This document shows positions 22,055-34,992 of a stretch of DNA of 37,023 nt, piece after piece. The notes below the pieces were generated by a model, which saw nothing but the letters and a program-made list of their open reading frames with translations, was not told where the DNA came from and did not search any database. The stretch comes from a virus. The DNA lies in the IMG/VR virus record IMGVR_UViG_3300020380_000186, positions 1-37,023 of that record. One strand, written 5' to 3'. The position numbers were made by a program, and so were the translations under genes. How positions within the stretch are numbered: the first letter of the stretch is position 1; each line of letters starts with the position of its first letter.

Positions 22055-22344
22055 ACAGGTTGAGTAGGAAATACAGCTACATACTCTACTGGAAAAGTTA
22101 ACATCTCCCAGTCTTGAGCACCCATAGCTGATTCCCAAGCGTTACGTTGGTCATAAGCAATTACGACTGTCTGAAATCCTCCAACATCTCGTAATGGAAG
22201 ATCACCACAATAGCTTCTTGGTATTCTTATGCACCAAGCTCTAGGTCTTAGCTTTATTGGATTAGTGGCCTGTGACACGATTCCACTTTCCCTGTGCTTG
22301 GCGATGTCCGATTTTTTCAAGCGGTATACCCAAGACTTGGGCAT
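22051..22344 (-). CDS. Unknown protein downstream of the large terminase
   Basis: The likely start is the ATG at 22344 (97 aa), preceded by a strong GAGGGGG and overlapping the terminase 3' end by 83 bp. An upstream ATG at 22431 and a GTG at 22278 are alternatives. The part after the terminase stop carries the protein-like sequence: RPRAWCIRIPRSYCGDL, then VGGFQTVVIAYDQRNAWE and a hydrophobic, Pro-ending tail (EYVAVFPTQPV). This looks like a compact beta-rich domain. T7 has small genes (18.5, 18.7, 19.2, 19.5) around its terminase, but I cannot match it to any of them. Confidence 0.6.
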   Translation of the reverse strand: MPKSWVYRLKKSDIAKHRESGIVSQATNPIKLRPRAWCIRIPRSYCGDLPLRDVGGFQTVVIAYDQRNAWESAMGAQDWEMLTFPVEYVAVFPTQPV

Positions 22345-23992
22345 CCAAAGCCCCCTCAATATCCCCCCTGTGAGCAGCCAATTCCAAATCCCATAGTTCC
22401 ATTTCACGATCTTTGATAGCTCTATCTTCATCTATTGCTAGCGATTCATTCCAATATTCCACCGCTCCAGCCAAAGAGTCAAGTCTATCATCGTTTTGTA
22501 AACAGTTTCGATCAACAGTTATGTGTGTCATCTGGTGAAACAGCTGATAACCTAACGCCTTATCTACTGAATCCTCTGTACGAGGCTTTGCGTCATTCTC
22601 AATAACCGACCTATTGATAATTAATCTATGTTGATTCATAACTGGCTCTAGTGCATTTATTATTCTTCTTTCTTTTTGTACATTGCTACGTTGACCTTCA
22701 ATAGTACAAGGGTAAATTTTTTGTAAATATGGCTTTAATAGACTTTCCATCATGCCTTGACCAAACTGATCTTCCAATAATATTAGATTTACCTTGTTTC
22801 TTTTACATGCTTCGGCAATACCAGTTAAAACTGGCTCGGTATAGCCTTCACAAAACGACCCGACCTCCAATACATAGAGATTTCCGTTTAAATGTCCGAC
22901 TATACTGTATGCAGTTTCATCGACACCCTTGCCTGATGGGTCAATATAAGCCACTACAGCAGTAAAAGGTAGCCAGTCACCATGCAAATAAGCTGGTCTA
23001 TGGTAATAATCAGCACTAAAACCCACAGCTGGCAAGTCTGTTAGCCGATATTCTGCTCCAGATGACCAAACAACCTTCTCAGGAGCGTGATCTTTAACCT
23101 CCATAACGACTAAATCAGCTAATCTTAGTGGGAATCGCTGTAAATCTGACAGGCTAGTGTCTAATTGGAACTGCAAAGTAAACTGTGAGCGACCATAACT
23201 AGCCTCTCTCTCCAATAAATCCATCTCAGAGAATCTATCAGGGTCGGTTGGTTGACCAGCTAACGTAGTTGATAGCTTAGAAATCATTGGAGCTAGGGCA
23301 TCTCCATACTTCTCTGGCTTCTTAGGGTATCTGCTAGTCCAGATGCGACAGTCATAACCTCTGTTTCTTAACTTGTTGTATATACTTTCCTCTGTTTGTG
23401 GCGTACCTAAGAACATAATCTCGCCGTCAGGCTTCAAAATAGCGTTAAATTCACCGCAGCATTGCAATAATTTCTCTCTCATACCTACAGTCCATGCTGT
23501 ATTCGGCACTTCGCAGTCATCGGCCAGTATTAAATCAGCACGACTACCAGTTAATTGTCCAAAGATACCTACACTTTTCACACTAGCTGACTGATCGGGT
23601 ATAGCTGGGCGTACATCAAATCTATTACTAGCTGATCTTTGCTGCTCTCGATCAGGTTCTAAGCATTTAAGTATAGGCATCTCTTGTATTATCCTTAAAC
23701 AAAACTGTGCAAAGTCATCAGCCCTCGTTTTCGAGGCCGACACAACCATAATCTTCTTCTGTGGGTCGTTTCTTAGTAGCCAAAGTACATAAGCAGCAGC
23801 CATCCATGACTTTCCTACTCCTCTAAACGCTTCAATTATTCTTCTCTTACTGCCGTTTTGCATATATTCGGCAATGTCTAGTTGTACTGTAGTAGGGTCT
23901 GGTAGTTGTAGATGTCGCCAGACTAAAACTAAGAAGTATCTAAAATCTTTATTGTATGGTTCTGGTAGTTGCTGCCAATCTTCCTTCTTCAT
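22262..23992 (-). CDS. Large terminase subunit (T7 gp19-like)
   Basis: The 576-aa product is nearly the length of T7 gp19 (586 aa), the ATPase and nuclease that packages DNA. Walker A is AFRGVGKS at residues 55-62, Walker B with its catalytic acid is LILADDCE at 154-161, and FLGTPQTEESIY (195-205) is the coupling motif. The nuclease domain follows with YIDPSGKGVDETAY (first Asp at 351), LILLEDQFGQG (404-413) and a late NDDRLDSLAGAVEYW, giving the acid triad. The ATG shares one base with the stop of the small terminase. In T7 this gene is at the end of the late region; here it leads the late arm. Confidence 0.97.
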   Translation of the reverse strand: MKKEDWQQLPEPYNKDFRYFLVLVWRHLQLPDPTTVQLDIAEYMQNGSKRRIIEAFRGVGKSWMAAAYVLWLLRNDPQKKIMVVSASKTRADDFAQFCLRIIQEMPILKCLEPDREQQRSASNRFDVRPAIPDQSASVKSVGIFGQLTGSRADLILADDCEVPNTAWTVGMREKLLQCCGEFNAILKPDGEIMFLGTPQTEESIYNKLRNRGYDCRIWTSRYPKKPEKYGDALAPMISKLSTTLAGQPTDPDRFSEMDLLEREASYGRSQFTLQFQLDTSLSDLQRFPLRLADLVVMEVKDHAPEKVVWSSGAEYRLTDLPAVGFSADYYHRPAYLHGDWLPFTAVVAYIDPSGKGVDETAYSIVGHLNGNLYVLEVGSFCEGYTEPVLTGIAEACKRNKVNLILLEDQFGQGMMESLLKPYLQKIYPCTIEGQRSNVQKERRIINALEPVMNQHRLIINRSVIENDAKPRTEDSVDKALGYQLFHQMTHITVDRNCLQNDDRLDSLAGAVEYWNESLAIDEDRAIKDREMELWDLELAAHRGDIEGALDAQVLGIPLEKIGHRQAQGKWNRVTGH

Positions 23993-24228
23993 TAGGCACT
24001 ACGCTTCTTTAATTCAATAACATTCTCTATATCTGGTAACGACCTAGCCAAATCACCAAAGGGTGTATCTTCAGCTGGCTGTGCAGTTATCTGATTATCC
24101 TTTAAAAACTGCCTTATAACATTTAAGTCACCAGTACTAGCTTCACCGCTATTCAATATGTCGCCTAATACACTCGCTAAGTTTGAGTGTAGGTCGCTTA
24201 GTACTTGTTCGGTGTCTTTTTTAGCCAT
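23992..24228 (-). CDS. Small terminase subunit (T7 gp18-like)
   Basis: A 78-aa protein (T7 gp18: 89 aa) immediately before and overlapping the large terminase by one base, in the T7 order. It has a helical N-terminus (DTEQVLSDLHSNLASVLGDI), a segment NVIRQFLKDNQITAQP typical of the family's oligomerising helix, and an acidic-to-basic C-terminus (IENVIELKKRSA). It recognises concatemer DNA for packaging. It is the first gene of the leftward arm and is fed directly by the control region. Confidence 0.85.
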   Translation of the reverse strand: MAKKDTEQVLSDLHSNLASVLGDILNSGEASTGDLNVIRQFLKDNQITAQPAEDTPFGDLARSLPDIENVIELKKRSA

Positions 24229-24276
24229 AATTTTTTAAAAATGAGGCTCAACCCACTACTGAAAAACCCCATTTAC

Positions 24277-24343
24277 AAGCCATTATATCGTGTGTGAGGA
24301 GTTTTGACCTGATGCTTTGCGGTTATCAGTCGTATAATGGCTT
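24277..24343. repeat. Inverted repeat of outward-facing TATAATGGCTT
   Basis: AAGCCATTATA at 24277-24287 and TATAATGGCTT at 24333-24343 are perfect reverse complements separated by 45 bp. Each arm reads outward as a consensus -10 box (TATAAT), one toward the small terminase and one toward the early genes. A matching -35 box at normal spacing is not evident (TTGACC on the plus side is 23 bp away). It may be a pair of host promoters, an operator, or both. Confidence 0.55.
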
Positions 24344-24350
24344 ATTCGTA

Positions 24351-24367
24351 ATATAACTACACTCGAA
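24351..24367 (+). promoter_or_regulatory. Candidate phage promoter in the control region
   Basis: ATATAACTACACTCGAA shares AACTACACT with the site at 25932-25948 and TACACT with the other copies. It lies just downstream of the right TATAATGGCTT arm and would transcribe the rightward genes. Confidence 0.35.
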
Positions 24368-24557
24368 ACTGCTGTCCACCACTAGCTCTCCACAATAGAA
24401 GAGAACAGGGGAGCTATCTATTAGTTACTATTAGTTATCTATCGGGATATATTTTGGTAGAAAAATCTGATCGGCTCTACGCTATATGGAATTTCGTAAA
24501 ATCCCCCTATTGAATAAGAAAAAAATTGCTGTAGGGTGGCCATCCGCTGTCCAAAAT

Positions 24558-24596
24558 AGGCTAATTAATAACAATAAATAATAATAATAAGGCTAT
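24558..24596. other. AT-rich tract, possible replication opening site
   Basis: A run of A and T only broken by isolated C or G, including AATAATAATAATAA, is bounded by AGGCTAA and AGGCTAT. T7's main origin is an AT-rich segment downstream of promoters near the start of the early region. I see no DnaA boxes or iterons, so the call is tentative. Confidence 0.25.
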
Positions 24597-24618
24597 AACT
24601 GGGCTCTGGCTGGGTTGA

Positions 24619-24641
24619 AGTGCTGTCTATTAGACAGTACT
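24619..24641 (+). other. Leader RNA hairpin
   Basis: AGTGCTGTCT, loop ATT, AGACAGTACT form a 10-bp stem with one G-T pair, flanked by GCTGG (24609-24613) and CCAGC (24643-24647) that can extend it. No T-run follows. It could be an RNase III site or attenuator in the early leader, as T7 early RNA is processed at hairpins. Confidence 0.45.
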
Positions 24642-24711
24642 ACCAGCTTTTAACTGCGATCTGGTCGCTTCTGGTGCTCAATTAGTTTTTATTTATGTAA
24701 TTTTTAGAGAT

Positions 24712-24777
24712 AAGCCGCCAAATATATTGCAAACCTCTAGTAATTGCTTTAATATCTAGAGAGAGTCCAGGCGGATT
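24712..24777 (+). other. Nested stem structure in the 5' leader of the first early gene
   Basis: CCGCC (24715-24719) pairs with GGCGG (24770-24774), with AA/TT pairs outside, and encloses CTCTAG/CTAGAG (24735-24740 with 24756-24761). It ends 27 bp before the ATG at 24805, which lacks a ribosome binding site. It may be a translation-control structure. Confidence 0.35.
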
Positions 24778-24804
24778 CTATTTGTACATTTATTTACTAA
24801 TCAA

Positions 24805-25188
24805 ATGACCACTACAACTCCTTACGACTGCATAATTGATAACAGCCTATTAAAAAAGGTTGGCTTATTAGATGCAACAGTAACCCAATTAATGGCATTA
24901 CACGGCCAACCAGCAACGGCATTTAATAACAAGATTTGTTTTGAATGGGATTGTGCAGCACTTGGCTTGATGATTCAAGCACCAGATTGTTTCAAAAGAT
25001 CATTAAAAGCTGCGGAGTTAAATCCTGATGCTGTTTATACATGGTCAGTTTTATCTGATTGTGCATCAGCTGTAACCAGATTAAACGCATACTATGAATT
25101 TATCGCTGGGCTTGAGTGCTGGGCTTTACATTCTGAGCTATGCCCAGCAGCTGGGTTAACTTGTGACTTTATTTATAAAGTACTTTGA
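24805..25188 (+). CDS. Unknown first early protein, Cys-rich
   Basis: This is the first gene of the rightward arm and encodes 127 aa with eight cysteines (e.g. NKICFEWDCAALG, QAPDCFKRS, GLECWALHSELCPAAG). No paired CxxC spacing typical of a zinc finger is present. Segments such as KKVGLLDATVTQLMALHG and SAVTRLNAYYEFIAG look helical. It is slightly acidic, has no signal peptide, and no clear Shine-Dalgarno sequence precedes the ATG. I do not recognise it. First position next to an antirestriction gene suggests a host-takeover or anti-defence role, which is inference only. Confidence 0.75.
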   Translation: MTTTTPYDCIIDNSLLKKVGLLDATVTQLMALHGQPATAFNNKICFEWDCAALGLMIQAPDCFKRSLKAAELNPDAVYTWSVLSDCASAVTRLNAYYEFIAGLECWALHSELCPAAGLTCDFIYKVL

Positions 25189-25201
25189 TTAAATCAAACT
25201 T

Positions 25202-25243
25202 AGAGCCAGCCGCTGGCTGGTTCTCTGGTTGACTTATCAACCA
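25202..25243 (+). other. Two tandem hairpins between the first early genes
   Basis: AGAGCCAG/CTGGTTCT (25202-25209 with 25217-25224, 7-nt loop) is followed at once by TGGTTGA/TCAACCA (25226-25232 with 25237-25243, loop CTTA). Neither has a T-run. They lie in the 81-bp gap before ardA and may be processing sites. Confidence 0.4.
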
Positions 25244-25269
25244 CTTAAAACAACTCACTACTTAAAACA

Positions 25270-25869
25270 ATGTCAACAACACTAGAAAACAAGCCAGCTT
25301 ATTTGAGTCAATCCGCAGATTTTGGGGAGTCCGACTGCTGGTTATGTGTTCAATGTTTAGCCGCTTACAATCAGGGACACCATCATTATTACTGGTTAGA
25401 TCTGGAGGAGCTCAACACCGACAGCCTCGAAGAGTTCGATAAAGAATTTAACGCCGCTATCAAATTTGTAATTGACACCAGCCCAGCAGAAGGGGCTGAA
25501 GAGTGGATATTTACAGACCACAGCGGGATTGATTCTATATATTCTGAATACATCGGAAGCGAAGAACTGTTCGAGTATCTCGAAGGATTGAAACAGGCTA
25601 AAGACAACGGCCATAGTCACGAACTCTGGGAAAATTATATAAATGAATTAGACCCAAGCGACAAAGACTATGACACATTCGAGGATATGTATTATGGGGG
25701 TTATGACAGCCCCGAAGAGTTCGCAGAATCTATCTGTCAGGACTGCGGTTATATTCCAAACGATCTCCCAAGCTGGATTGAAATAGACTGGGAGAGAACA
25801 TGGGAAAATTTAAGCCAAGACTACACAGAAGTAGACGCAGACGGCCAAACCTACATATTCAGAAATTAA
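25270..25869 (+). CDS. ardA: ArdA-type antirestriction protein
   Basis: The 199-aa product shows the ArdA landmarks in order: CLAAYNQGHHHYYWLD (29-44), EEWIFTDHSGID (77-88), the helical EELFEYLEGLKQA (98-110), FEDMYYGGYDSPEEFAE (137-153), and a C-terminal IDWERTWENLSQDY (172-185) with final YIFRN. ArdA proteins are elongated acidic dimers that mimic bent B-DNA and block type I restriction-modification enzymes. The strong excess of Asp and Glu here fits this. It is about 30 residues longer than the usual 165-170 aa. It is the second gene expressed, matching the position of T7 gene 0.3 (Ocr, an unrelated DNA mimic). An intrinsic terminator follows, so it forms an early unit with the preceding gene. 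Confidence 0.9.
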   Translation: MSTTLENKPAYLSQSADFGESDCWLCVQCLAAYNQGHHHYYWLDLEELNTDSLEEFDKEFNAAIKFVIDTSPAEGAEEWIFTDHSGIDSIYSEYIGSEELFEYLEGLKQAKDNGHSHELWENYINELDPSDKDYDTFEDMYYGGYDSPEEFAESICQDCGYIPNDLPSWIEIDWERTWENLSQDYTEVDADGQTYIFRN

Positions 25870-25892
25870 ACACGCTCCAGAAGGAGCCAGAA

Positions 25893-25923
25893 GGCCTCCG
25901 AAATTTTCTTCGGGGGTCTTTAT
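25893..25923 (+). terminator. Intrinsic terminator after ardA
   Basis: GGCCTCCGAA, loop ATTTTC, TTCGGGGGTC form a 10-bp stem with two G-T pairs, followed by TTTAT. It lies 24 bp after the ardA stop. It would end or attenuate the first early transcript made by host RNA polymerase. Confidence 0.8.
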
Positions 25924-25931
25924 ACCTTCCA

Positions 25932-25948
25932 AAAACTACACTTTTATA
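25932..25948 (+). promoter_or_regulatory. Candidate phage promoter after the early terminator
   Basis: AAAACTACACTTTTATA lies directly between the terminator and the run of small genes leading to RNA polymerase. It shares AACTACACT with the site near 24355 and ACTACACTT with that at 21635. Position after a terminator supports promoter function. Confidence 0.45.
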
Positions 25949-25963
25949 GGTCTTCTATGAATG

Positions 25964-25982
25964 AGTAGTTTTTTAAACTACT
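25964..25982 (+). other. Perfect 8-bp hairpin in the leader of the small-gene operon
   Basis: AGTAGTTT, loop TTT, AAACTACT form a perfect stem 30 bp before the likely ATG at 26012. It may be an operator or an RNA stabiliser. Confidence 0.4.
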
Positions 25983-26011
25983 TACTAAACCACTACAAAA
26001 GGTACTTATTT

Positions 26012-26185
26012 ATGCCAAGCATAGAATTTATTACTTTTGATGAGGATAACAACCCACAAAAGAAAGTTTACGAAGGTAAACACATTAACGACCTCCTTTT
26101 AAATGAGGATGAGATCGGCCAAATAATATCCGACTGCATGTTCGGTAAAGGCAAAGTAAACATAAACGAGGGTGGCGATGAGTAA
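26012..26185 (+). CDS. Small acidic unknown protein
   Basis: The ATG at 26012 gives 57 aa starting MPSIEFITFDEDN and has AAAAGG upstream; an in-frame ATG at 25961 would translate the hairpin and is less likely. The protein has a beta-like start, NPQKKVYEGKHINDLLL, and an acidic helical end. I do not recognise it. It is the first of a chain of small overlapping genes reaching to RNA polymerase, and its end overlaps the next start by 8 bp. Confidence 0.6.
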   Translation: MPSIEFITFDEDNNPQKKVYEGKHINDLLLNEDEIGQIISDCMFGKGKVNINEGGDE

Positions 26186-26528
26186 AAAGAAAATCAAATA
26201 CGAGCAACAGCCTCGTAGAATTATCGCCATCACAGCATGGAACTCTGGAACCTCTATTGCATGGTCATCAGGACACGACCCTAATATTATTCATGCAACT
26301 AAGGCCGTAAGAAAAGCCAAGAGGGATAACAAGTTACTAGGCTGGCAAATTATGACTGCTCACATATTCGACATCGAAGACTGTGAGCGGTGGGCATGGG
26401 ATGGCTACCAGTTAGTCAACCCAGATATAGTTGATAAAGAATCACGATCATATAAGGAGCAGTATTACAACCAGTACAAAGGATGTAAACCTTTTAAGTT
26501 AATCGAAAGTCTACAGGTGGTGACATGA
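26178..26528 (+). CDS. Unknown basic protein
   Basis: The ATG at 26178 (116 aa) is preferred over the GTG two codons earlier because GAGGG lies at good spacing. The N-terminus is basic (MSKKKIKYEQQPRR), followed by a beta-like stretch IIAITAWNSGTSIAWSS and a helix (ATKAVRKAKRDNKLLG), then a Trp-rich, acidic part (DIEDCERWAWDGYQLVN). No known motif is seen. The end overlaps the next gene by 4 bp (ATGA). Confidence 0.65.
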   Translation: MSKKKIKYEQQPRRIIAITAWNSGTSIAWSSGHDPNIIHATKAVRKAKRDNKLLGWQIMTAHIFDIEDCERWAWDGYQLVNPDIVDKESRSYKEQYYNQYKGCKPFKLIESLQVVT

Positions 26529-26713
26529 TTAAACACTACATCGAAGACAAGGATAATATCCCAGCCATATTAGATCATGGCTGGATAGTCCTTAAAAATA
26601 CATGGACTGATTGCCCACCAAGTATTCAAAAAAGAATTAACAACGATCTAATGTCACAATTTTTTGGCAACGACCCAAAACTAATGAAGCAACATCAGGA
26701 GGATTTAAACTAA
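26525..26713 (+). CDS. Small unknown protein (62 aa)
   Basis: The product MIKHYIEDKDNIPAILDHGW and onward is mixed in charge with a C-terminal helix (NNDLMSQFFGNDPKLMKQ). It is coupled at both ends (ATGA start overlap, TAATG end overlap). AGGTGG precedes the start. No family is recognised; position in the tightly packed operon supports it as a gene. Confidence 0.6.
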   Translation: MIKHYIEDKDNIPAILDHGWIVLKNTWTDCPPSIQKRINNDLMSQFFGNDPKLMKQHQEDLN

Positions 26714-26895
26714 TGCCTATTTATAAGGTCGCAATGGCCGAATCACATTCTCAGTTTTATAAAGTTAAAGCTAAGAATGAAGATGAAGCAATAGAGAGAG
26801 CCTACATGTATGACGAAGACCAAGACTGGGCTATCGATACATGGGATGAAGGCATCGAAACACAAGACTACGCATTTACAGAGGAGGAAAGCTAA
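26713..26895 (+). CDS. Small acidic protein, DpnD/PcfM-like pattern
   Basis: Sixty residues: PIYKVAMAESHSQFYKVKAK, then NEDEAIERAYMYDEDQDW and an acidic tail ending EEES. A short strand pair followed by a NEDEAIERA helix is the shape of small DpnD/PcfM-type proteins found on phages and plasmids, though the resemblance is general. GGAGG lies upstream and the start overlaps the previous stop (TAATG). Confidence 0.6.
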   Translation: MPIYKVAMAESHSQFYKVKAKNEDEAIERAYMYDEDQDWAIDTWDEGIETQDYAFTEEES

Positions 26896-27191
26896 TGCCA
26901 ATGAGCTTAAGTGATTATCCAGTTTGCACCGATCAGGTGCAACATGACTGGAAGTATCGAATAGTATTTACTATTGATTGTGATTATGAGGAGTTAGTGC
27001 AAGCTATCGACCTCGACTATGTGAGAAGAGGTAGCGACTTAAAGGTTAGTTGCTACACCGACTCTAAAGATGAGCTTGAAAGCTGGTTAGAACCAGAGTA
27101 TGACAAGTTCTGTGAAAACGTACTTAACCCAGAGCTAGCAGAGTCTTGCAGCTATGCGGTTGTTTATAGAAAAAGAGGTGCTAACAAATGA
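26895..27191 (+). CDS. Unknown acidic protein (98 aa)
   Basis: It begins MPMSLSDYPVCTDQVQHDW and contains four Cys, a strand-rich middle (YRIVFTIDCDYEELVQAIDL) and a final strand YAVVYRKRG. The alternating strand and helix order suggests a small alpha/beta domain. GAGGAGGAAAG precedes the start. No family is recognised. The 3' end overlaps the next ATG by 4 bp. Confidence 0.65.
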   Translation: MPMSLSDYPVCTDQVQHDWKYRIVFTIDCDYEELVQAIDLDYVRRGSDLKVSCYTDSKDELESWLEPEYDKFCENVLNPELAESCSYAVVYRKRGANK

Positions 27192-27517
27192 GCCAACAAA
27201 AAATAATAATCAACAGATCACTATATTGTGACTGGAGATTTAATGGCTGTGGTGATGACTGGGATGACTTCATAGACTCCTATGGCTTTAGTCCACAGTT
27301 CCTTATCGATGGTAAAACCATTAATGATGTATCTTTAGAGGATGTATTTTGGAGTTGTGGTTATATGTACAATGACCAAATACAAAATCTTAAAGAACTT
27401 GATACACCAGAGAATAGAAAAGAGTTCGGAGATGACTTCTTTGATTATGAAGGGGTTGAAATCGTACCAACAGAACTAATGAAGTTCGATTTAATCTGGG
27501 AAGGGGAGGAAAGCTAA
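27188..27517 (+). CDS. Unknown acidic protein (109 aa)
   Basis: A strongly acidic protein rich in Asp, Trp and Phe (CDWRFNGCGDDWDDFIDSYG; YEGVEIVPTELMKFDLIW), with a final EGEES. The high negative charge and aromatic content would suit a DNA mimic or a protein-binding inhibitor, but nothing specific supports either. AAGAGGTG lies upstream. The stop overlaps the next ATG (TAATG). Confidence 0.65.
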   Translation: MSQQKIIINRSLYCDWRFNGCGDDWDDFIDSYGFSPQFLIDGKTINDVSLEDVFWSCGYMYNDQIQNLKELDTPENRKEFGDDFFDYEGVEIVPTELMKFDLIWEGEES

Positions 27518-27855
27518 TGGGATTAGATGAACAGTTCAAACGTATTCATCTGGAGTACGGCATCATCAACGATAGATGGATGTTTAACGACCAACTTGAA
27601 TACAGCGATAGCGATTATCTTAGGGAGATCGGTGCTAATGACATCGAACTTCTTAAGTTATTAAAAGAAAATCCGTTATGGCATACTCAAGTACAGCGAC
27701 TAACTTATATCTTGGGAGTTATTAATAATCTCTCAGGCAATACGGATAAGTTAATAGTGTTACCAGATGATTCATGTAAGGCTAGAAATTTATTAATTAA
27801 GCATATTATTGAGGATTTAATTCCAGTAGTGGAGGCGATGAACTCATGCAGATAG
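27517..27855 (+). CDS. Unknown helical protein (112 aa)
   Basis: A mostly helical protein (IGANDIELLKLLKENPLWHT; VQRLTYILGVINNLSG; LLIKHIIEDLIPVVEAMNS) without membrane segments or recognisable motifs. It is preceded by GGGGAGGAAAG, the strongest ribosome binding site in this row. Its end overlaps the next gene by 10 bp. Confidence 0.65.
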   Translation: MGLDEQFKRIHLEYGIINDRWMFNDQLEYSDSDYLREIGANDIELLKLLKENPLWHTQVQRLTYILGVINNLSGNTDKLIVLPDDSCKARNLLIKHIIEDLIPVVEAMNSCR

Positions 27856-28037
27856 TTAATAAAGAAATGAAAACGTATGAAATTGTTTATAGTAGTGCTT
27901 CAACAAATTTTGTTGAGGCCTACTATATAAAAGCAGTTAATTTATACGAGGCATTGACTAGCTTTATGCGAAGCAAGATACCTTATAACGATATTTATGA
28001 GGTGAAGTTATGCAAAGCGAACAATAAGGTAGCTTAG
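27846..28037 (+). CDS. Small unknown protein (63 aa)
   Basis: The ATG at 27846 follows GGAGGCGATG at a good distance; an in-frame ATG at 27873 is also possible. The sequence TYEIVYSSASTNFVEAYYIK then a helix (AVNLYEALTSFMRSK) and strand (DIYEVKLCKAN) suggests a small alpha/beta fold similar in outline to the 60-aa protein at 26713. No function is known. Confidence 0.55.
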   Translation: MQIVNKEMKTYEIVYSSASTNFVEAYYIKAVNLYEALTSFMRSKIPYNDIYEVKLCKANNKVA

Positions 28038-28038
28038 T

Positions 28039-28182
28039 ATGAGTCTCATAAAATTAAATATTATTCTGTTGACATTTTTATTCATGTCATTAACAATCCA
28101 AATAGGATTTAACCCTGATTACAACCTACTACTTAAGGAGCATGGATTACCAGCTATACAAACTAGCGAAGAAAAAACCTAA
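28039..28182 (+). CDS. Tiny membrane protein (47 aa)
   Basis: MSLIKLNIILLTFLFMSLTI starts a product with one hydrophobic helix (residues 4-24) and a short polar tail ending in SEEKT. AAGGT lies upstream. The 3' end overlaps the next gene by 41 bp in another frame. A small inner-membrane protein could be a host-membrane effector; this is inference from composition alone. Confidence 0.5.
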   Translation: MSLIKLNIILLTFLFMSLTIQIGFNPDYNLLLKEHGLPAIQTSEEKT

Positions 28183-28477
28183 CAAAGCCCACTCTAATAA
28201 TGCTGGGCTTATTCTCTACTTCACTAAGGGTGATGACTTTACCCCTAACGGACAATGGATTAGTTATTCATACAATTACTATCCATCCAATGCTATCTAT
28301 TGGACTATGCTACCTGATAATCCAGAGAAGATAGAGACAGAAGATGAGGCTAGCGATAGGGCTATGAATGAACTACTTAAGCAAACCTTTACTAATGTCG
28401 AGCATAGGGTAGCTATGTATTCGACAGTTAAATTAGTATGGAATACAGCACGGAGGTTTTTTAATGGAAGAAAGTAA
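28142..28477 (+). CDS. Unknown basic protein (111 aa)
   Basis: Lys-rich at the start (LYKLAKKKPNKAHSNNAG), aromatic in the middle (ISYSYNYYPSNAIYWTM) and helical toward the end (EASDRAMNELLKQTF), finishing with RRFFNGRK. AAGGAG is immediately upstream. I do not recognise it. It overlaps the next gene by 14 bp. Confidence 0.6.
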   Translation: MDYQLYKLAKKKPNKAHSNNAGLILYFTKGDDFTPNGQWISYSYNYYPSNAIYWTMLPDNPEKIETEDEASDRAMNELLKQTFTNVEHRVAMYSTVKLVWNTARRFFNGRK

Positions 28478-28640
28478 AAAGTTACAAGCCTTTTTACCAC
28501 CCCAAGTATGCAATAGGCTAGATCATCTAGCTAAATACATGGGCATTACCAGAGCCGAGCTAGCTAAACGTATTATTACTGAATGGCTTGAAGGTAAATA
28601 CGCCAAAACTATAGAGTTTTGGAGTGATGCGAAGCCTTGA
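28464..28640 (+). CDS. Ribbon-helix-helix-like small protein next to RNA polymerase
   Basis: A 58-aa protein preceded by a good GGAGG (28452-28456). The sequence KLQAFLPPQVCNRLDHLAKY then MGITRAELAKRIITEWLEGK has the order of a beta strand and two helices seen in Arc/CopG-type ribbon-helix-helix DNA-binding proteins, with the typical GxTRAELxxxII between the helices. It overlaps the RNA polymerase start by 14 bp and is co-translated with it. It may repress or time transcription of the phage or host. Confidence 0.6.
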   Translation: MEESKKLQAFLPPQVCNRLDHLAKYMGITRAELAKRIITEWLEGKYAKTIEFWSDAKP

Positions 28641-30999
28641 CGATCAACTAGCTAATGAAGACCTGATGTTAAACATGGGTCAGAATAGAATAAGATCACA
28701 ACACAATCGAAAACAAGCAGCGAGCATGGAGTCTCTCACCATTTATGGCGAGGCTCTATGCTCTTTTAATGTGGATATAATTGTCAGTCACTTGCGAGCC
28801 ATCAGGAGGAAAATAGAGCAGGGAAAAGCTGGCACTAACTATGCAATGCTTACCCCCTTACTAGAATTACCACCCCAACAAATTGCAGCTGCATCCATTA
28901 GATCTGTAGTCGATACCTTATCTAGTACACCAAGTCTGCATCAGCTAGCAGCTGGTGTTATCGAAAAGATATGGATAGAGACAATGCTCGATAGAGCTAC
29001 AGATAGTGAGTTATCCAAGTACAAGAAAGGTAGGCATAAAAAAAGATACAGAATATTTTTAATAAATAATATGACCAATACAGAATACTGGAATCCAAGA
29101 CAACGGATGGCAAGTGGATTATTTATGGTCGAACTTATACAAAAATATACTGGATTAATAGAAATTTTTTTAGATAAATCTTGCAAGCCAGCAAGACGAA
29201 TGGTTCGAGCAACCGACAAGTGTATGGAGTGGGTAAAAAAAATTGATACTGAAGTTAGAATAACCAGCCCTAACTTCTTACCTATGCTTATTAAACCGAA
29301 GCGATGGAGTAACCCATATGATGGTGGATACTACAATGAGAATATAAAATTTAATTTATTTAAAAGTAATAACAAAGAGATAGCCTCTAGAATATACAAC
29401 GATACAGCCTTTTTAAAAGTAGCCAACATACAAGGGGAAGTTAGCTGGTGTATTAATAAATATATTTTAGATCAGGTGCTGCATGCTTACGATAACAACC
29501 TAGAGATAGGCTGCTTATTACCAAGAGATGGATATGCAGTACCGCCATACCCTAAACATTTAGATGAAGACGACCCACTTGTTATTAAATGGAGAATAAA
29601 CTGCAAGAGAATTATAGATAAGAATAACCAAACTAAAGGTAGTCGCATAGGTATTGCCAAGATGTTATGGATGGCTGAGAAATATAAAGATGAACCTAAC
29701 TTATACTTTCCAAAGCAACTAGATTTTAGAGGTCGAGTATATGATAGAGTTCCTTTTCTTAATTCTCAAGGCAATGATTTATCAAGAGCACTACTGCAAT
29801 TTACAAACGGCAAGCTAATCAAAACGGAAGATGATTTGTCGTGGTTAAAAATACATGGTGCAAATATGTATGGAATCAAACATGACTTTCAAACAAAGAT
29901 AGATTGGGTTAATAATAATTTAAAAACTATTTATGGAATTGGTAGAGATTGTTGGACAGCCCCTGACTTTTGGTTGCGAGCAGATAAGGCTTGGAGTTTT
30001 CTTGCTTTTTGCAGGGCAATCTATCTTTATCAACAAGAACCAAGTAGCTATTTATGTCAGCTTCCCTGCCACCTTGATTGCACTTGCAGTTCTATTCAGC
30101 ACTTCTCAGGTTTGCTCCGTGACAAAGTAATGGGAGAGAAAGTTAATTTAATTAATAGCGATAGACCACAAGATATATACAGCGAAGTTGCAAGCAAAGT
30201 AAACCAGAGATTAGTACAGGCTAAAGACCCAAGAGCTAGCAAGTGGTTGATGTTAAACGTGGATAGATCATTGACTAAGCCTTGCGTTATGACAGCACCA
30301 TACTCAGCAACTAATAGTGCTTTCTATCACCACGCCTACAGTTGGGCTATCGAGCGTGGGTCAATGCTAGGCAAGAATAACTGGACAAGAGGTAAAGGTG
30401 CTATGAGTACAGTAAGTTATATGGCTAACGTGCTGTATCAGGAGTCAGCAAAGGCTATCGAACCAGCATGCGTAGCAATGAAATGGTTTAGAGCTATAGG
30501 TAGAGAGCTAGGTAAAGTAAACAAAGCAGTACATTGGACTAGCCCTACTGGTTTGTATGTTGAACAGAAGTATTACGACCCAAAAAAAATAAGAATACAA
30601 TTACGTTATTTATCTGACGTATATCTAGATATAAGAACAAACGAGGATACCCCAGATTTTAATACAAAGAAGATGGGGCATGCGATCTCAGCAAATATAT
30701 TACATAGTTTTGATGCAAGTCATATGGCATTTTCTACGATTCATGCTTCAATAAGGGGAGTCGAAAATATCGCTGGCATCCACGATTGTTTCGTAACTAC
30801 GCCGTCTGAAATGAGTCTACTCCGTAACTCAGTTAGACAGTCATTCGCTGATATGTATTCAGTAGATCAACTGTCAAAACTAAAGGGAGAATTGAAAGCC
30901 CAATTAACAGACAAACAAATAGAAGCACTACCTCCAGAGCCTACTCATGGAGAGCTAGATGTTTTACTTACACGTTCATCAACCTATTTCATAACATGA
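28627..30999 (+). CDS. Single-subunit T7-family RNA polymerase
   Basis: From the ATG at 28627 (or a GTG one codon earlier) the protein has about 790 aa against 883 for T7, shortened mainly in the N-terminal domain. Counting from the GTG, the core motifs are DFRGRVYDRVPF (D367), motif A LDCTCSSIQHFSG with the catalytic Asp at 485, motif B with K552 in LTKPCVMTAPY and Tyr560, and motif C HDCFVTTP with the second catalytic Asp at 721. NILHSFDASHM just before motif C is also conserved. All key residues are present, so it should be active. It would transcribe middle and late genes from phage promoters. It overlaps the SSB start by 4 bp. Confidence 0.97.
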   Translation: MRSLDDQLANEDLMLNMGQNRIRSQHNRKQAASMESLTIYGEALCSFNVDIIVSHLRAIRRKIEQGKAGTNYAMLTPLLELPPQQIAAASIRSVVDTLSSTPSLHQLAAGVIEKIWIETMLDRATDSELSKYKKGRHKKRYRIFLINNMTNTEYWNPRQRMASGLFMVELIQKYTGLIEIFLDKSCKPARRMVRATDKCMEWVKKIDTEVRITSPNFLPMLIKPKRWSNPYDGGYYNENIKFNLFKSNNKEIASRIYNDTAFLKVANIQGEVSWCINKYILDQVLHAYDNNLEIGCLLPRDGYAVPPYPKHLDEDDPLVIKWRINCKRIIDKNNQTKGSRIGIAKMLWMAEKYKDEPNLYFPKQLDFRGRVYDRVPFLNSQGNDLSRALLQFTNGKLIKTEDDLSWLKIHGANMYGIKHDFQTKIDWVNNNLKTIYGIGRDCWTAPDFWLRADKAWSFLAFCRAIYLYQQEPSSYLCQLPCHLDCTCSSIQHFSGLLRDKVMGEKVNLINSDRPQDIYSEVASKVNQRLVQAKDPRASKWLMLNVDRSLTKPCVMTAPYSATNSAFYHHAYSWAIERGSMLGKNNWTRGKGAMSTVSYMANVLYQESAKAIEPACVAMKWFRAIGRELGKVNKAVHWTSPTGLYVEQKYYDPKKIRIQLRYLSDVYLDIRTNEDTPDFNTKKMGHAISANILHSFDASHMAFSTIHASIRGVENIAGIHDCFVTTPSEMSLLRNSVRQSFADMYSVDQLSKLKGELKAQLTDKQIEALPPEPTHGELDVLLTRSSTYFIT

Positions 31000-31631
31000 G
31001 CCAGATCAAAGCAAAACCTTTTTATATCTTCACCCCAGAGTGCGGTGTTGCATGGAGTCATCTAGTTAAACCAGATGATGCTTTTAATAAAGCACCAGAA
31101 TGGAGCGTAACTTTATTGCTAGATACAGACGATAAAGAAACAGCAATGGTGTTCCAACAATTCGAGGATGGACTAGACCAATGGAAAGGTCAGCTAAAAG
31201 CAGCCTTCCCAGATACAACTTTTAAATTAGGAGAACACTCAAGGTATGAGTTTACTGACTTCGAGGGCAAGAAAGTATTGTCAATCAAATGTAAAAAGCC
31301 TGTTGAAGCTGGGCAAGGTGCTAATAGATTTAAGAATACACCGCCAGTATTAGTCGATAAGTATGGCACTCCAATTACAGGAGAGGAAAGAGAGAAGTAC
31401 ATAGGACTAGGTAGAGGAACAACAGTACAAGCCAAGCTAAGAGTACAAGGCTACAACCATCCGCAGTATGGTGTTGGATTAACAGTCCAACCAGAAGCCA
31501 TAGTCATTATGAAATTCGTTCCATATGAAAAAACGACAGACCTCTCAGGGTTCAAGTTCCAAAGCAAAAACGAAACGCAAGACCTCACACCCTCAAACGT
31601 TGAAAACTCCTTCGGGGGTAGTACATTTTAG
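30996..31631 (+). CDS. ssDNA-binding protein (T7 gp2.5-like)
   Basis: A 211-aa protein (T7 gp2.5: 232 aa) directly after RNA polymerase with a 4-bp overlap. The pattern CGVAWSHLVKPDDAFNKAPE, followed by WSVTLLLD, fits the OB-fold of gp2.5, and a later GRGTTVQAKLRVQGYN and YGVGLTVQPEAIVIMKF are typical of the family. T7 gp2.5 ends in an acidic tail with terminal Phe that contacts DNA polymerase and helicase. Here the end is SNVENSFGGSTF: the terminal Phe is kept but the acidic run is nearly absent. The last 107 bp also encode the start of endonuclease I. Confidence 0.9.
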   Translation: MSQIKAKPFYIFTPECGVAWSHLVKPDDAFNKAPEWSVTLLLDTDDKETAMVFQQFEDGLDQWKGQLKAAFPDTTFKLGEHSRYEFTDFEGKKVLSIKCKKPVEAGQGANRFKNTPPVLVDKYGTPITGEEREKYIGLGRGTTVQAKLRVQGYNHPQYGVGLTVQPEAIVIMKFVPYEKTTDLSGFKFQSKNETQDLTPSNVENSFGGSTF

Positions 31632-31974
31632 ATCAAAGTTCGAGGCTCAAGTTGCCTCTGACTTAATCAAAAAGAATGTACAATTCAGCTATGAAACTGT
31701 CAGCTATGATTACATCATCAGCAGTAGCTACACTCCTGACATCATCCTTCCTTCATGTGTGGTTGAACTCAAAGGAACGCTACTTAAAGAAGAGAGAAAA
31801 AAATATATTGCAGTCAAGACGCAACATCCCACACTAAGCTTGCGGTTCTGTTTTCAAAACGCAAACAACAAACTTAGTAAAGCCAAGAGAAGCCTGACGT
31901 ATTGGCAATGGGCTGAACGTCACGGCTTTCTTTGGTGTAACAAAACTATCCCAAAAGAATGGTATGCCGAGTAA
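31525..31974 (+). CDS. Endonuclease I, Holliday-junction resolvase (T7 gp3-like)
   Basis: This 149-aa product has the same length as T7 gp3. Catalytic residues are visible: E40 in FRSKFEAQVA, D72 in YTPDIILP, and E81-x-K83 in VVELKG. Further family positions are the RKKYIAVKTQHP helix and CNKTIPKEWY near the C-terminus. It cleaves branched DNA and degrades host DNA to nucleotide precursors. The N-terminus is Lys/Ser rich. The ATG lies inside the SSB gene, and I found no later ATG that would preserve E40; the end overlaps primase/helicase by 11 bp. Confidence 0.95.
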   Translation: MKKRQTSQGSSSKAKTKRKTSHPQTLKTPSGVVHFRSKFEAQVASDLIKKNVQFSYETVSYDYIISSSYTPDIILPSCVVELKGTLLKEERKKYIAVKTQHPTLSLRFCFQNANNKLSKAKRSLTYWQWAERHGFLWCNKTIPKEWYAE

Positions 31975-33562
31975 ATACATAAGCAAAGAACCTTGCCCAG
32001 AATGTAACAGCAAAGATAATGTAGCTGTTTACGATGATGGACATAAGCATTGCTTTGGATGTGGTTGGCAATTTCAGCCCAAAAAAATTTTGAAGAAACC
32101 CACGTTTGTACCAATGAAAAAAGAATGGAATCCACTAACTCCAATCCCTTGTGCCCTACCAAAACGTGGCATAACAGAAGAGACTTGTAAGTTTTTTAAC
32201 TATGGAGTATCTAAATTAAACGGAACTGATTGTCAGGTGGCAACTTACAGAGATCAAAGTGGATTAGTTGCTGCTCAACATATAAGGTTTAAAGATAAAA
32301 GATTTATATGGAAGGGAGACTTGTCGGATATAAAGCTATGGGGTCAAGAGTTATGGAGACAGTTTAATACTGGTAGTTCTTTTGTAACAATTACAGAGGG
32401 CGAGATCGACTGTCTCAGCATAGCTCAATGTACAAGATCTAATACAGGCAATTACTTTCCAGTTGTAAGTTTGCCATCAGGTGCTCAATCTGCTACCAAG
32501 TATGTAGCTGCAAATTTAAAATGGTTATCTCAGTTTGTTCGTATCGTTATTTGTTTTGACTCCGACCCAGCTGGTGTTCATGCTGCCGAAAAGGTTGCAA
32601 AAATCTTACCTACTGGTAAAGCAGCTATCGCTCACCTACCAAGAAAGGATGCTAATGAAATGCTCCTCGCAGGGGAGGGCGAGCTACTCAGAGATCTCCT
32701 CTTCAAAGCAAGTCCTGTCAGACCCGACAACATATTCTCTGCCTACGATCTATGGGAAGATCTAGTTAAAGAAGATAACTCACAGATATGTAGCTATCCT
32801 TTTCCAGAGCTAAACAAGATGGTGCAAGGATATAGAAAGCAGTCGCTGACTACAATCTGTGCTGGTACTGGCGTGGGGAAGAGCCTACTTTGTAGGGAGA
32901 TGGCTTATCATTTCCTTAACCATAATCTTAAGGTGGGGTGGATTGGCCTCGAAGAGAGCAGTAAGAGAAGTATGCAAGGCATCCTATCCATTGCCTTAAA
33001 CAAACCATTGCATATAGATGAGAAGGCTGTTGATGAAAAAGAGTTACGACAAGCATTTGATTATTTATTTAGTGACAATAGGTTTGTATTGCTGCAACAC
33101 TTTGGTTCACTAGACCCTGATCGATTAATAGATCAGATAACATATATGGCTACTGGTGAAGAGTGCGATGTAATATTCCTAGATCACCTTAGTCTTGTGG
33201 TATCTGGACTAAGCGATGGAGATGAAAGAAAACAAATAGATGTATGCTGCACCAAGCTAAGACAGGTAGTAGAGAAGACAGGCGTAGGTTTAGTTATGGT
33301 CAGTCACTTGCGTAGAACAGATGGCAAACCAGCTGAAGAGGGAGGCGACATAAACTTGGCCGCCTTAAGAGGGTCGCAGTCCATAGCCCAGTTAAGTGAC
33401 CTTGTTATGTGTGGCATTAGATCGCAGCAATCAGAAGAAGGAAGCAATGAACTACAGCTAAAGGTACTAAAGAATAGACATAACGGATGCTTGGGCAAAG
33501 CAGATAAGTTGCAATACAACGAATCTACTGGCCGCCTTACACCTTCACTTACAAACTTCTAA
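31964..33562 (+). CDS. Primase/helicase (T7 gp4-like)
   Basis: The 532-aa bifunctional protein (T7 gp4: 566 aa) has an N-terminal zinc ribbon (C11-x2-C14, C30-x2-C33), a TOPRIM primase domain with E145 in ITEGEID and D199-x-D201 in FDSDPAG, and a RecA-like hexameric helicase with Walker A GTGVGKS (301-307), Walker B IFLDH (D407) and the later VMVSHLRR and LRGSQSIAQLSD. All catalytic motifs are intact. The C-terminus, YNESTGRLTPSLTNF, keeps a terminal Phe but not the acidic tail used by T7 gp4 to bind DNA polymerase. Its last base is the first base of the exonuclease gene, leaving no room for gene 5. Confidence 0.96.
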   Translation: MPSKYISKEPCPECNSKDNVAVYDDGHKHCFGCGWQFQPKKILKKPTFVPMKKEWNPLTPIPCALPKRGITEETCKFFNYGVSKLNGTDCQVATYRDQSGLVAAQHIRFKDKRFIWKGDLSDIKLWGQELWRQFNTGSSFVTITEGEIDCLSIAQCTRSNTGNYFPVVSLPSGAQSATKYVAANLKWLSQFVRIVICFDSDPAGVHAAEKVAKILPTGKAAIAHLPRKDANEMLLAGEGELLRDLLFKASPVRPDNIFSAYDLWEDLVKEDNSQICSYPFPELNKMVQGYRKQSLTTICAGTGVGKSLLCREMAYHFLNHNLKVGWIGLEESSKRSMQGILSIALNKPLHIDEKAVDEKELRQAFDYLFSDNRFVLLQHFGSLDPDRLIDQITYMATGEECDVIFLDHLSLVVSGLSDGDERKQIDVCCTKLRQVVEKTGVGLVMVSHLRRTDGKPAEEGGDINLAALRGSQSIAQLSDLVMCGIRSQQSEEGSNELQLKVLKNRHNGCLGKADKLQYNESTGRLTPSLTNF

Positions 33563-34293
33563 TGACTTTATTAATTGATGCCGACTGGCTTTGTTACCAT
33601 TGCTGCTATGCAGTAGAGAGCGATGACAAGTTCGATGACAACTTGCATGTATTGTACTCACGACCTAGTTGGGCGTTAGATCTTATCGAGACATACATCA
33701 AGGGATACAAAGAAGTATCCGAAGATGAAGGTGAAGTTATTATGTGCTTTACTTCCTACCCTACCTTTAGGCATGACTTGTATCAGGATTACAAAGCCAA
33801 CCGCAAGAGCAGAAGAAAACCATTAGCACTTAAAGGCGTGATGGATGCACTTACAAATAGATACAAGTGTGTTAGGTATGACAACCTCGAAGGCGATGAC
33901 GTACTTGGCATACTTGCTACAAGCAAAGAGTTAGATGACCCTATAATTGTTAGTCCAGATAAAGACATGCGAACCATACCCTGCAAGCTACTAGCTGGAG
34001 ATGACTTGGAACTTATAACAAGAAGGCAAGCGGATAGGAACTGGATGATTATGGCACTAACTGGAGATATGACTGACAACTATAAAGGTATAACTGGCGT
34101 GGGTACAGTAACAGCTAACAAGATACTAGGCGACAGTAAAACATTAGAAGAGATGTGGGATATAGTCGTTAAAGAATACGAGAAGAAATCAGGTGGACAT
34201 AAAGAAGCATTGCTTACAGCAAGGTTGGCTAGGATACTAAGAGCAGAAGACTATAACAATAAAACAGGTAAGGTTAAACTATGGAAACCTTAA
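33562..34293 (+). CDS. 5'-3' exonuclease, FEN-like (T7 gp6-like)
   Basis: A 243-aa flap-nuclease-family exonuclease (T7 gp6: 300 aa). Metal-binding and helical-arch residues are present: D6 and D8 in LIDADW, YKANRK (77-82), LEGDD (109-113), SPDKD (131-135), GDMTDNYKG (168-176), and the helix-hairpin-helix GITGVGTVTANKI (176-188). In T7 it removes RNA primers and degrades host DNA. The start shares one base with the helicase stop. The end overlaps a minus-strand small gene by 4 bp. Confidence 0.95.
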   Translation: MTLLIDADWLCYHCCYAVESDDKFDDNLHVLYSRPSWALDLIETYIKGYKEVSEDEGEVIMCFTSYPTFRHDLYQDYKANRKSRRKPLALKGVMDALTNRYKCVRYDNLEGDDVLGILATSKELDDPIIVSPDKDMRTIPCKLLAGDDLELITRRQADRNWMIMALTGDMTDNYKGITGVGTVTANKILGDSKTLEEMWDIVVKEYEKKSGGHKEALLTARLARILRAEDYNNKTGKVKLWKP

Positions 34294-34445
34294 GCAATAT
34301 CTAGTGGATTCTTTTTCTTTTTCTTAGGGAAACCAGCTTTCATATTAGCGTAAGCTTGTGGTGTTATAGTGCTATCTTTTTTACTTCTACTTGTACCAGC
34401 CTTCTTTCTTTTATTTATGTTGTAATACAATCCTTTTCTAGCCAT
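34290..34445 (-). CDS. Small Lys-rich conserved phage protein (51 aa), antisense
   Basis: From the ATG at 34445: MARKGLYYNINKRKKAGTSR, continuing with DSTITPQAYANMKAGFPKKK and a polar end. The KGLYxNINxRKKAGTSRSK pattern recurs, to my knowledge, in short proteins of many marine and other phages; role unknown. It is the only minus-strand gene in the rightward arm, convergent to the exonuclease gene and divergent from the next small gene. An upstream in-frame ATG at 34478 would add 11 residues without similarity. Confidence 0.75.
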   Translation of the reverse strand: MARKGLYYNINKRKKAGTSRSKKDSTITPQAYANMKAGFPKKKKKNPLDIA

Positions 34446-34463
34446 AGTAATTAAAGTATTATG

Positions 34464-34483
34464 TATATAACTTACCATTACTT
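34464..34483 (+). promoter_or_regulatory. Weak candidate phage promoter before the portal cluster
   Basis: TATATAACTTACCATTACTT shares ATATAACT with the site near 24353 but not the full TACACT core. It would start the small genes, portal and scaffold. Spacing to the ATG at 34484 is very short, so the call is weak. Confidence 0.2.
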
Positions 34484-34666
34484 ATGGCTATTGACGACCA
34501 GTTTCCACCAGTTGATGAAGCATTGATTAGACGTTTAAATGAAATGTATCCTGAGAAATGCCCAGACATTGACACAACTGATAGAAACATTTGGTTTTAT
34601 TCTGGTCAGCGAAGCGTGGTAAAAATGCTCGAATCAGTTTACAATGAGCAAAACACACAAAACTAA
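34484..34666 (+). CDS. Small conserved protein (60 aa)
   Basis: MAIDDQFPPVDEALIRRLNE, then MYPEKCPDIDTTDRNIWFYS and GQRSVVKMLESVYNEQN. The LIxRLxExxPxKCPD...R.IWFxxGQRSVV arrangement is one I associate with short proteins near the portal gene of marine T7-like phages. It is helical and cytosolic; its role is unknown but probably head assembly by position. Confidence 0.75.
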   Translation: MAIDDQFPPVDEALIRRLNEMYPEKCPDIDTTDRNIWFYSGQRSVVKMLESVYNEQNTQN

Positions 34667-34675
34667 GAGGTAACT

Positions 34676-34987
34676 ATGTGCGGCGGCAACCGAAGACCAC
34701 CAGATCGGACTGACGAAATGTTAGCCGTACAGCGTGAGCAGATAGCTGAACAGAAGAGACAGTACGAAGAGACAAGAGCAGATAACTTAGCTCGTCAAGA
34801 AGAGCAGAAGAAAATAGCTAACGCTCCATCCGCACCACCACCAGCTGCAACTGCTAAAGCACCAGCCGCAGCATTGGAAATACCAGCTGGAGATATTGGT
34901 TTAGGTACAGCCCAGAAGCAAAGAGGGTTTGGTAGAAAAAGATTAAGAACAGATTTACTGAAGGGTTCTGGCCTACAAATCCCATAA
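34676..34987 (+). CDS. Small protein upstream of the portal, Met-Cys-Gly start
   Basis: A 103-aa protein: MCGGNRRPPDRTDEMLAV, a Gln/Glu/Arg-rich helix (REQIAEQKRQYEETRADN), an Ala/Pro linker and a Gly/Lys/Arg-rich end (GFGRKRLRTDLLKGSG). The helix-linker-basic design resembles small proteins found between exonuclease and portal genes in other podoviruses. GAGGTAAC precedes the start. The role is unknown. Confidence 0.75.
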   Translation: MCGGNRRPPDRTDEMLAVQREQIAEQKRQYEETRADNLARQEEQKKIANAPSAPPPAATAKAPAAALEIPAGDIGLGTAQKQRGFGRKRLRTDLLKGSGLQIP

Positions 34988-34992
34988 ACTAA

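Follow-up and report, generated by a model that had tools for sequence, protein, structure and literature searches.

A predicted ArdA antirestriction gene in a variable early slot of an uncultivated relative of Prochlorococcus podoviruses

Introduction

The mechanism of ArdA antirestriction proteins has been described previously (PMC3906837, PMC3969726, PMC3874165). The ArdA of Tn916 has 166 amino acids (PMC3874165), and ArdA proteins with N-terminal or C-terminal extensions are already on record (PMC3969726). Phage T7 encodes Ocr at gene 0.3, and the true gene 0.3 position is also the first to enter the cell (PMC3874165). Among the cyanopodoviruses, P-SCSP1 phages represent the MPP-C clade, which lacks a DNA polymerase gene (PMC9860041). 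Our literature search, with most subscription journals outside its reach, returned no description of ArdA in cyanopodoviruses.

Here we describe a predicted ardA gene in a single IMG/VR virus record (IMGVR_UViG_3300020380_000186). All 37,023 bases of this record were analyzed and are referred to as the window. A first-pass annotation, made from the sequence alone, had read one early open reading frame as ArdA, placed it in the T7 gene 0.3 position and proposed that it had functionally replaced Ocr.

Results

The T7-like single-subunit RNA polymerase gene of this virus (28624..30999, +; PF00940, phrog_414) encodes a protein 52% identical to those of the P-SCSP1 Prochlorococcus phages, P-SCSP1u among them, and all other listed matches are at most 29% identical. 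The terminase block shares approximately 80% DNA identity with P-SCSP1 phages. These sequence comparisons place the virus, which is uncultivated, among the relatives of the MPP-C Prochlorococcus podoviruses. The most likely host is Prochlorococcus because of this kinship to P-SCSP1 (MPP-C) isolates, and kinship alone was used to assign it. In Pfam and PHROGs searches, no DNA polymerase family matched any of the larger ORFs of the virus, which is an MPP-C trait. The exonuclease gene comes directly after the primase/helicase gene (31964-33562), the same as in P-SCSP1u. Between 28624 and 36747 lie the primase/helicase, exonuclease and portal genes, with no DNA polymerase match between them.

The gene order of the MPP-C isolates is not matched throughout. 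The capsid-tail and terminase block (1692-24228, -) runs opposite to the early, replication and portal genes (24805-36747, +), so that the capsid-tail block is inverted relative to the portal gene when compared with P-SCSP1u. The capsid-tail block lies on the terminase strand, opposite the portal gene, in six related contigs that hold both genes. Misassembly was considered as the cause of the inversion and rejected, since these six portal-bearing contigs agree. Judged from the contigs, the inversion is a real arrangement that sets this sublineage apart from the MPP-C isolates. The virion block also contains an ORF of 3019 amino acids (2681-11740, -) in the place of a large internal virion protein, with no Pfam match. 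The contig showed no terminal repeats.

The early region begins at a divergent intergenic region of 576 bp (24229..24804), which shows 79% mean column identity with the related locus L008. The genes for the small (23992-24228, -) and large (22262-23992, -) terminase subunits (phrog_38 / phrog_891 for the two genes) lie on one side of it. On the other side, the first early gene is an ORF of 127 amino acids with unassigned function (24805..25188, +), followed by ardA, about 10 small ORFs and the RNA polymerase gene. The ardA gene is thus the second early ORF, divergent from the terminase genes and approximately 2.8 kb upstream of the RNA polymerase gene, which agrees with the early location given in the first-pass annotation. 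Divergent homologues of the 127-aa ORF (24-34%) stand at the head of the early region in most close relatives. A simple scan of the virus sequence found 13 promoters where 14.3 were expected by chance, and the equivalent scan for terminators gave no excess over chance. As no promoter signal rises above chance, early expression of ardA is predicted from its position. No Rfam family was detected in the early region.

The ardA ORF (25270..25869, +) is present and intact, and encodes 199 residues. Residues 26-182 match PF07275 (ArdA) with an E-value of 7.9e-14 and 53 bits against a cut-off of 27, and the protein also matches the anti-restriction protein family phrog_2059 (E 5.2e-14). It contains 47 Asp/Glu against 8 Lys/Arg, with a pI of about 4.05 and a net charge of about -39, in keeping with the acidic, DNA-mimicking character that had been ascribed to it. 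These values lie well outside chance expectation. We built a profile from this protein and 56 phage relatives, and all 57 sequences match PF07275. Against PDB sequences, this profile recovered Tn916 ArdA (2W82, 7BTO and 7BTR; E 1.3e-18) and nothing else below 0.01. Profiles alone recovered the ArdA structure; a single-sequence phmmer search of PDB chains found no ArdA.

We modeled the monomer with AlphaFold2 using the 57-sequence alignment, which gave a mean pLDDT of 93.7 and a pTM of 0.85. Foldseek against the PDB returned 2W82 as the sole match below 0.001 (E 1.4e-4). VIA-align matched 2W82 over 154 of 162 residues (model residues 22-198; Z 9.8, rmsd 3.2), with the next entry at Z 2.9; residues 1-21 fall outside the matched ArdA core. 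An earlier model from 7 sequences had a poor C-terminal half that was repaired by the 57-sequence alignment. That earlier model gave no significant Foldseek match, and VIA-align matched it to 2W82 with Z 6.3. Of the predicted viral proteins in BFVD that match the final model, most carry an antirestriction annotation, among them a protein of Prochlorococcus phage P-TIM68. The predicted fold is the ArdA fold. The profile search and structure prediction proposed in the first-pass annotation therefore both bear out its assignment, and we conclude from profile and model that the protein is an ArdA and very probably a type I antirestriction protein.

The protein was also said to be about 30 residues longer than usual, with extra sequence at the N-terminus and in the middle. 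The difference is real when plasmid or transposon ArdA is taken as the standard: it has approximately 33 residues more than Tn916 ArdA. Of its residues, 25 precede the Pfam match, and net insertions within the match add about 17 (157 residues over 140 profile positions). The N-terminal extra sequence is coding, because the relatives whose proteins are 70-71% identical share 24 of the first 26 residues with it. Among 78 ArdA proteins from phage contigs, lengths range from 167 to 260 aa with a median of 192, although start codons were set by rule and the upper lengths are inflated. We therefore rejected the extra length as a sign of an unusual ArdA; it is ordinary among these phage proteins.

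An identical protein is encoded in a second IMG/VR contig, and two further contigs carry the 70-71% identical protein in the same gene context; the surroundings of ardA are conserved in independent contigs. Comparison of this virus with L008 gives dN/dS values of 0.12 (ardA), 0.11 (RNA polymerase gene) and 0.07 (terL), and closer ArdA pairs give 0.065-0.10. In the wider comparison synonymous sites are close to saturation, which makes that dN/dS value rough. The ardA gene is clearly under purifying selection for its protein.

We compared slot content across 79 loci with a related terminase. In the readable loci, the position at or following the first early ORF holds ArdA in 8 contigs, a 129-aa family in 11 and a 134-aa family in 8, and other slot genes include a relative of P-SCSP1u gp38. 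Alternative slot genes are found at L092:538-927 (-) and related loci, at L115, L112, L118, L124 and L125, and at L009:37420-37854. Those alternatives that were scanned with Pfam gave no meaningful assignment except one DUF7222. We consider the 129-aa, 134-aa and gp38 families to be candidates for other counter-defence genes.

Nucleotide comparisons revealed a mosaic at this slot. The 127-aa ORF (71% identical in L008, where it also directly precedes ardA), the gap and ardA have 66-72% nucleotide identity to L008, and no comparable match in L094 or L102. From position 25875 onward, identity is 78-93% to L102/L094, with no comparable L008 match over the next kilobase. This change from L008 type to L102/L094 type shows that the first ORF and ardA form one cassette, which arrived, or was retained, as a unit with its right edge at the end of ardA. 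In the ArdA tree, a single clade for the copies of this lineage has a support of 0.12, and these copies may stem from one acquisition or from several.

In the gap upstream of ardA, the RNA folds into two hairpins side by side (25202-25224 and 25226-25243, +; z -5.1). Related contigs of this lineage carry the tandem hairpins in front of ardA, and in L112 and L115 they stand in front of the 134-aa gene, which is unrelated to ArdA. The hairpin pair shows covariation in a 10-sequence alignment: standard pairs fill 95% of pair cells, two-sided changes occur at six pairs, and none of the slid versions of the structure approaches the observed pairing; the shuffle test is inflated by related sequences, and the structure was derived from the same sequences. 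A 13-bp hairpin follows ardA (25890..25921, +; z -4.7) and resembles a terminator or processing site. In L092/L094/L102, a near-identical copy of this segment lies downstream of another slot gene. T7 early mRNA carries RNase III sites. By analogy, our best guess is that the hairpins may serve in mRNA processing or stabilisation; termination or attenuation is possible.

For the host side, we searched 266 genomes from the genus to which Prochlorococcus marinus MIT 9201 belongs. The HsdR N-terminal domain was detected in 34 of them and an HsdS domain in 34, with both on the same contig in at least 26 (two lists compared by inspection). These counts are lower bounds because many of the genomes are partial single-cell assemblies. 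MIT 9201 itself has a complete hsdM-hsdS-hsdS-hsdR locus (L271:1333-8539), with the two hsdS genes side by side. Type I restriction pressure in the host population, which the first-pass annotation had suggested, is therefore plausible. Type I restriction is present but patchy in the host genus, in keeping with a phage gene that some viruses have and others lack.

Discussion

We consider it highly probable that the gene encodes a true ArdA, a DNA mimic acting against type I enzymes, and that it is an early-expressed gene of an exchangeable slot. Its negatively charged product would be elongated, imitating B-form DNA, and would occupy the DNA-binding groove of the type I restriction-modification enzymes of the host. 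With ardA transcribed second among the early genes, ahead of the phage RNA polymerase gene, ArdA would accumulate while most of the phage DNA is not yet open to cutting. A variable slot adjoining conserved RNA hairpins holds different, interchangeable accessory genes in this cyanopodovirus lineage, of which ardA is one; in the virus described here, ardA was exchanged along with the ORF that precedes it. Early expression, dimer formation and inhibition of type I enzymes are the parts of this mechanism that we infer.

A protein with the ArdA fold could also be aimed mainly at a target other than type I enzymes, such as BREX, methylation-dependent systems, a host repressor or RNA polymerase. There are precedents, as Ocr also blocks BREX (PMC7261183) and ArdA is able to affect E. 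coli gene regulation (PMC13300388). Moreover, no HsdR match was found in 232 of the 266 Prochlorococcus genomes (~87%), many of which are incomplete, and yet ardA is under purifying selection. However, the genomes that have HsdR and HsdS together, the agreement between a patchy host defence and a patchy phage gene, and the retention of the complete ArdA fold all argue for type I enzymes, and we regard a different main target as unlikely. The patchy distribution and cassette-like exchange would also be expected of an intact hitchhiking relic, transferred with its neighbor and without a role in this virus. This reading had already been weakened, and we give it hardly any credence: dN/dS is 0.07-0.12 across lineages, even if synonymous change is near saturation, and ardA is intact in all full-length copies seen.

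The proposal that ArdA directly replaced an ancestral Ocr in the T7 gene 0.3 position has in its favor that ardA lies in the same general place, early and ahead of the RNA polymerase gene, and that both families share a known type of activity (PMC3874165). Nevertheless, Pfam detected no Ocr among the genes scanned in this virus or among the slot genes scanned from its relatives, and the ArdA ORF matches the ArdA family only. In sister viruses the slot is occupied by ArdA or by various unrelated small genes, and the cyanopodovirus P-SSP7 has other genes at that place. Direct replacement is thus very unlikely, and the functional replacement of Ocr put forward in the first-pass annotation is not supported in a lineage where no Ocr was seen.

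The slot after the first early gene could be a hairpin-marked, modular counter-defence site in an ocean virus lineage that is widespread. ArdA would alternate there with unrelated, unannotated families such as the 129-aa, 134-aa and gp38 types, each inhibiting a different host defence, and the hairpins would process or regulate the mRNA of the resident gene. We offer this tentatively, as a possibility that we would not yet favor. The hairpin-marked slot with its alternative unassigned genes is a more interesting lead than ardA itself, and it provides a short list of unassigned genes as counter-defence candidates. With an antirestriction gene now well supported in relatives of abundant surface-ocean cyanophages, and type I restriction genes present in a minority of the genomes of the likely host genus, restriction becomes a testable part of the contest between Prochlorococcus and its phages.

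ArdA in the early slot before the RNA polymerase gene is already visible in public records and is not new, contrary to the rarity implied by the first-pass annotation. Autographiviridae isolates with an annotated ArdA gene ahead of the RNA polymerase gene are Rhizobium phage Pasto, Desulfovibrio phage ProddE, Pseudomonas phage vB_PsyP_3MF5 and Pelagibacter phages Jormungand and Ran. Like the protein described here, their ArdA-like proteins are PF07275 members whose genes lie in the early region, ahead of a T7-like RNA polymerase gene; identity to the protein described here is about 28-30% where aligned. In Pasto, ProddE and Jormungand an integrase gene lies close to the RNA polymerase gene, whereas none was seen in this virus. 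The Synechococcus podoviruses WH11-B and S-B28 carry a 186-aa gene in the corresponding early position, annotated as 'antirestriction protein' in WH11-B and unannotated in S-B28. It has no Pfam match below 0.01 and matches an ArdA of this lineage with E-values of 5e-4 to 9e-4, which makes it a probable ArdA.

Ocr, the T7 gene 0.3 protein, is likewise an acidic DNA mimic that is encoded early, before the RNA polymerase gene (PMC3874165), but its fold and sequence are unrelated to this ArdA. The ArdA of Tn916 (ORF18; 2W82, 7BTO, 7BTR) belongs to the same profile family, PF07275, and has the fold predicted here over 154 residues. Its acidic excess is similar, with 38 acidic and 6 basic residues (PMC3969726) compared with 47 and 8. 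The two proteins are approximately 14% identical on the structural alignment, and the phage protein is longer by about 33 residues, with a 25-residue N-terminal addition. They also differ in their carrier, which is a conjugative element for Tn916 ArdA and a T7-like phage for the protein described here.
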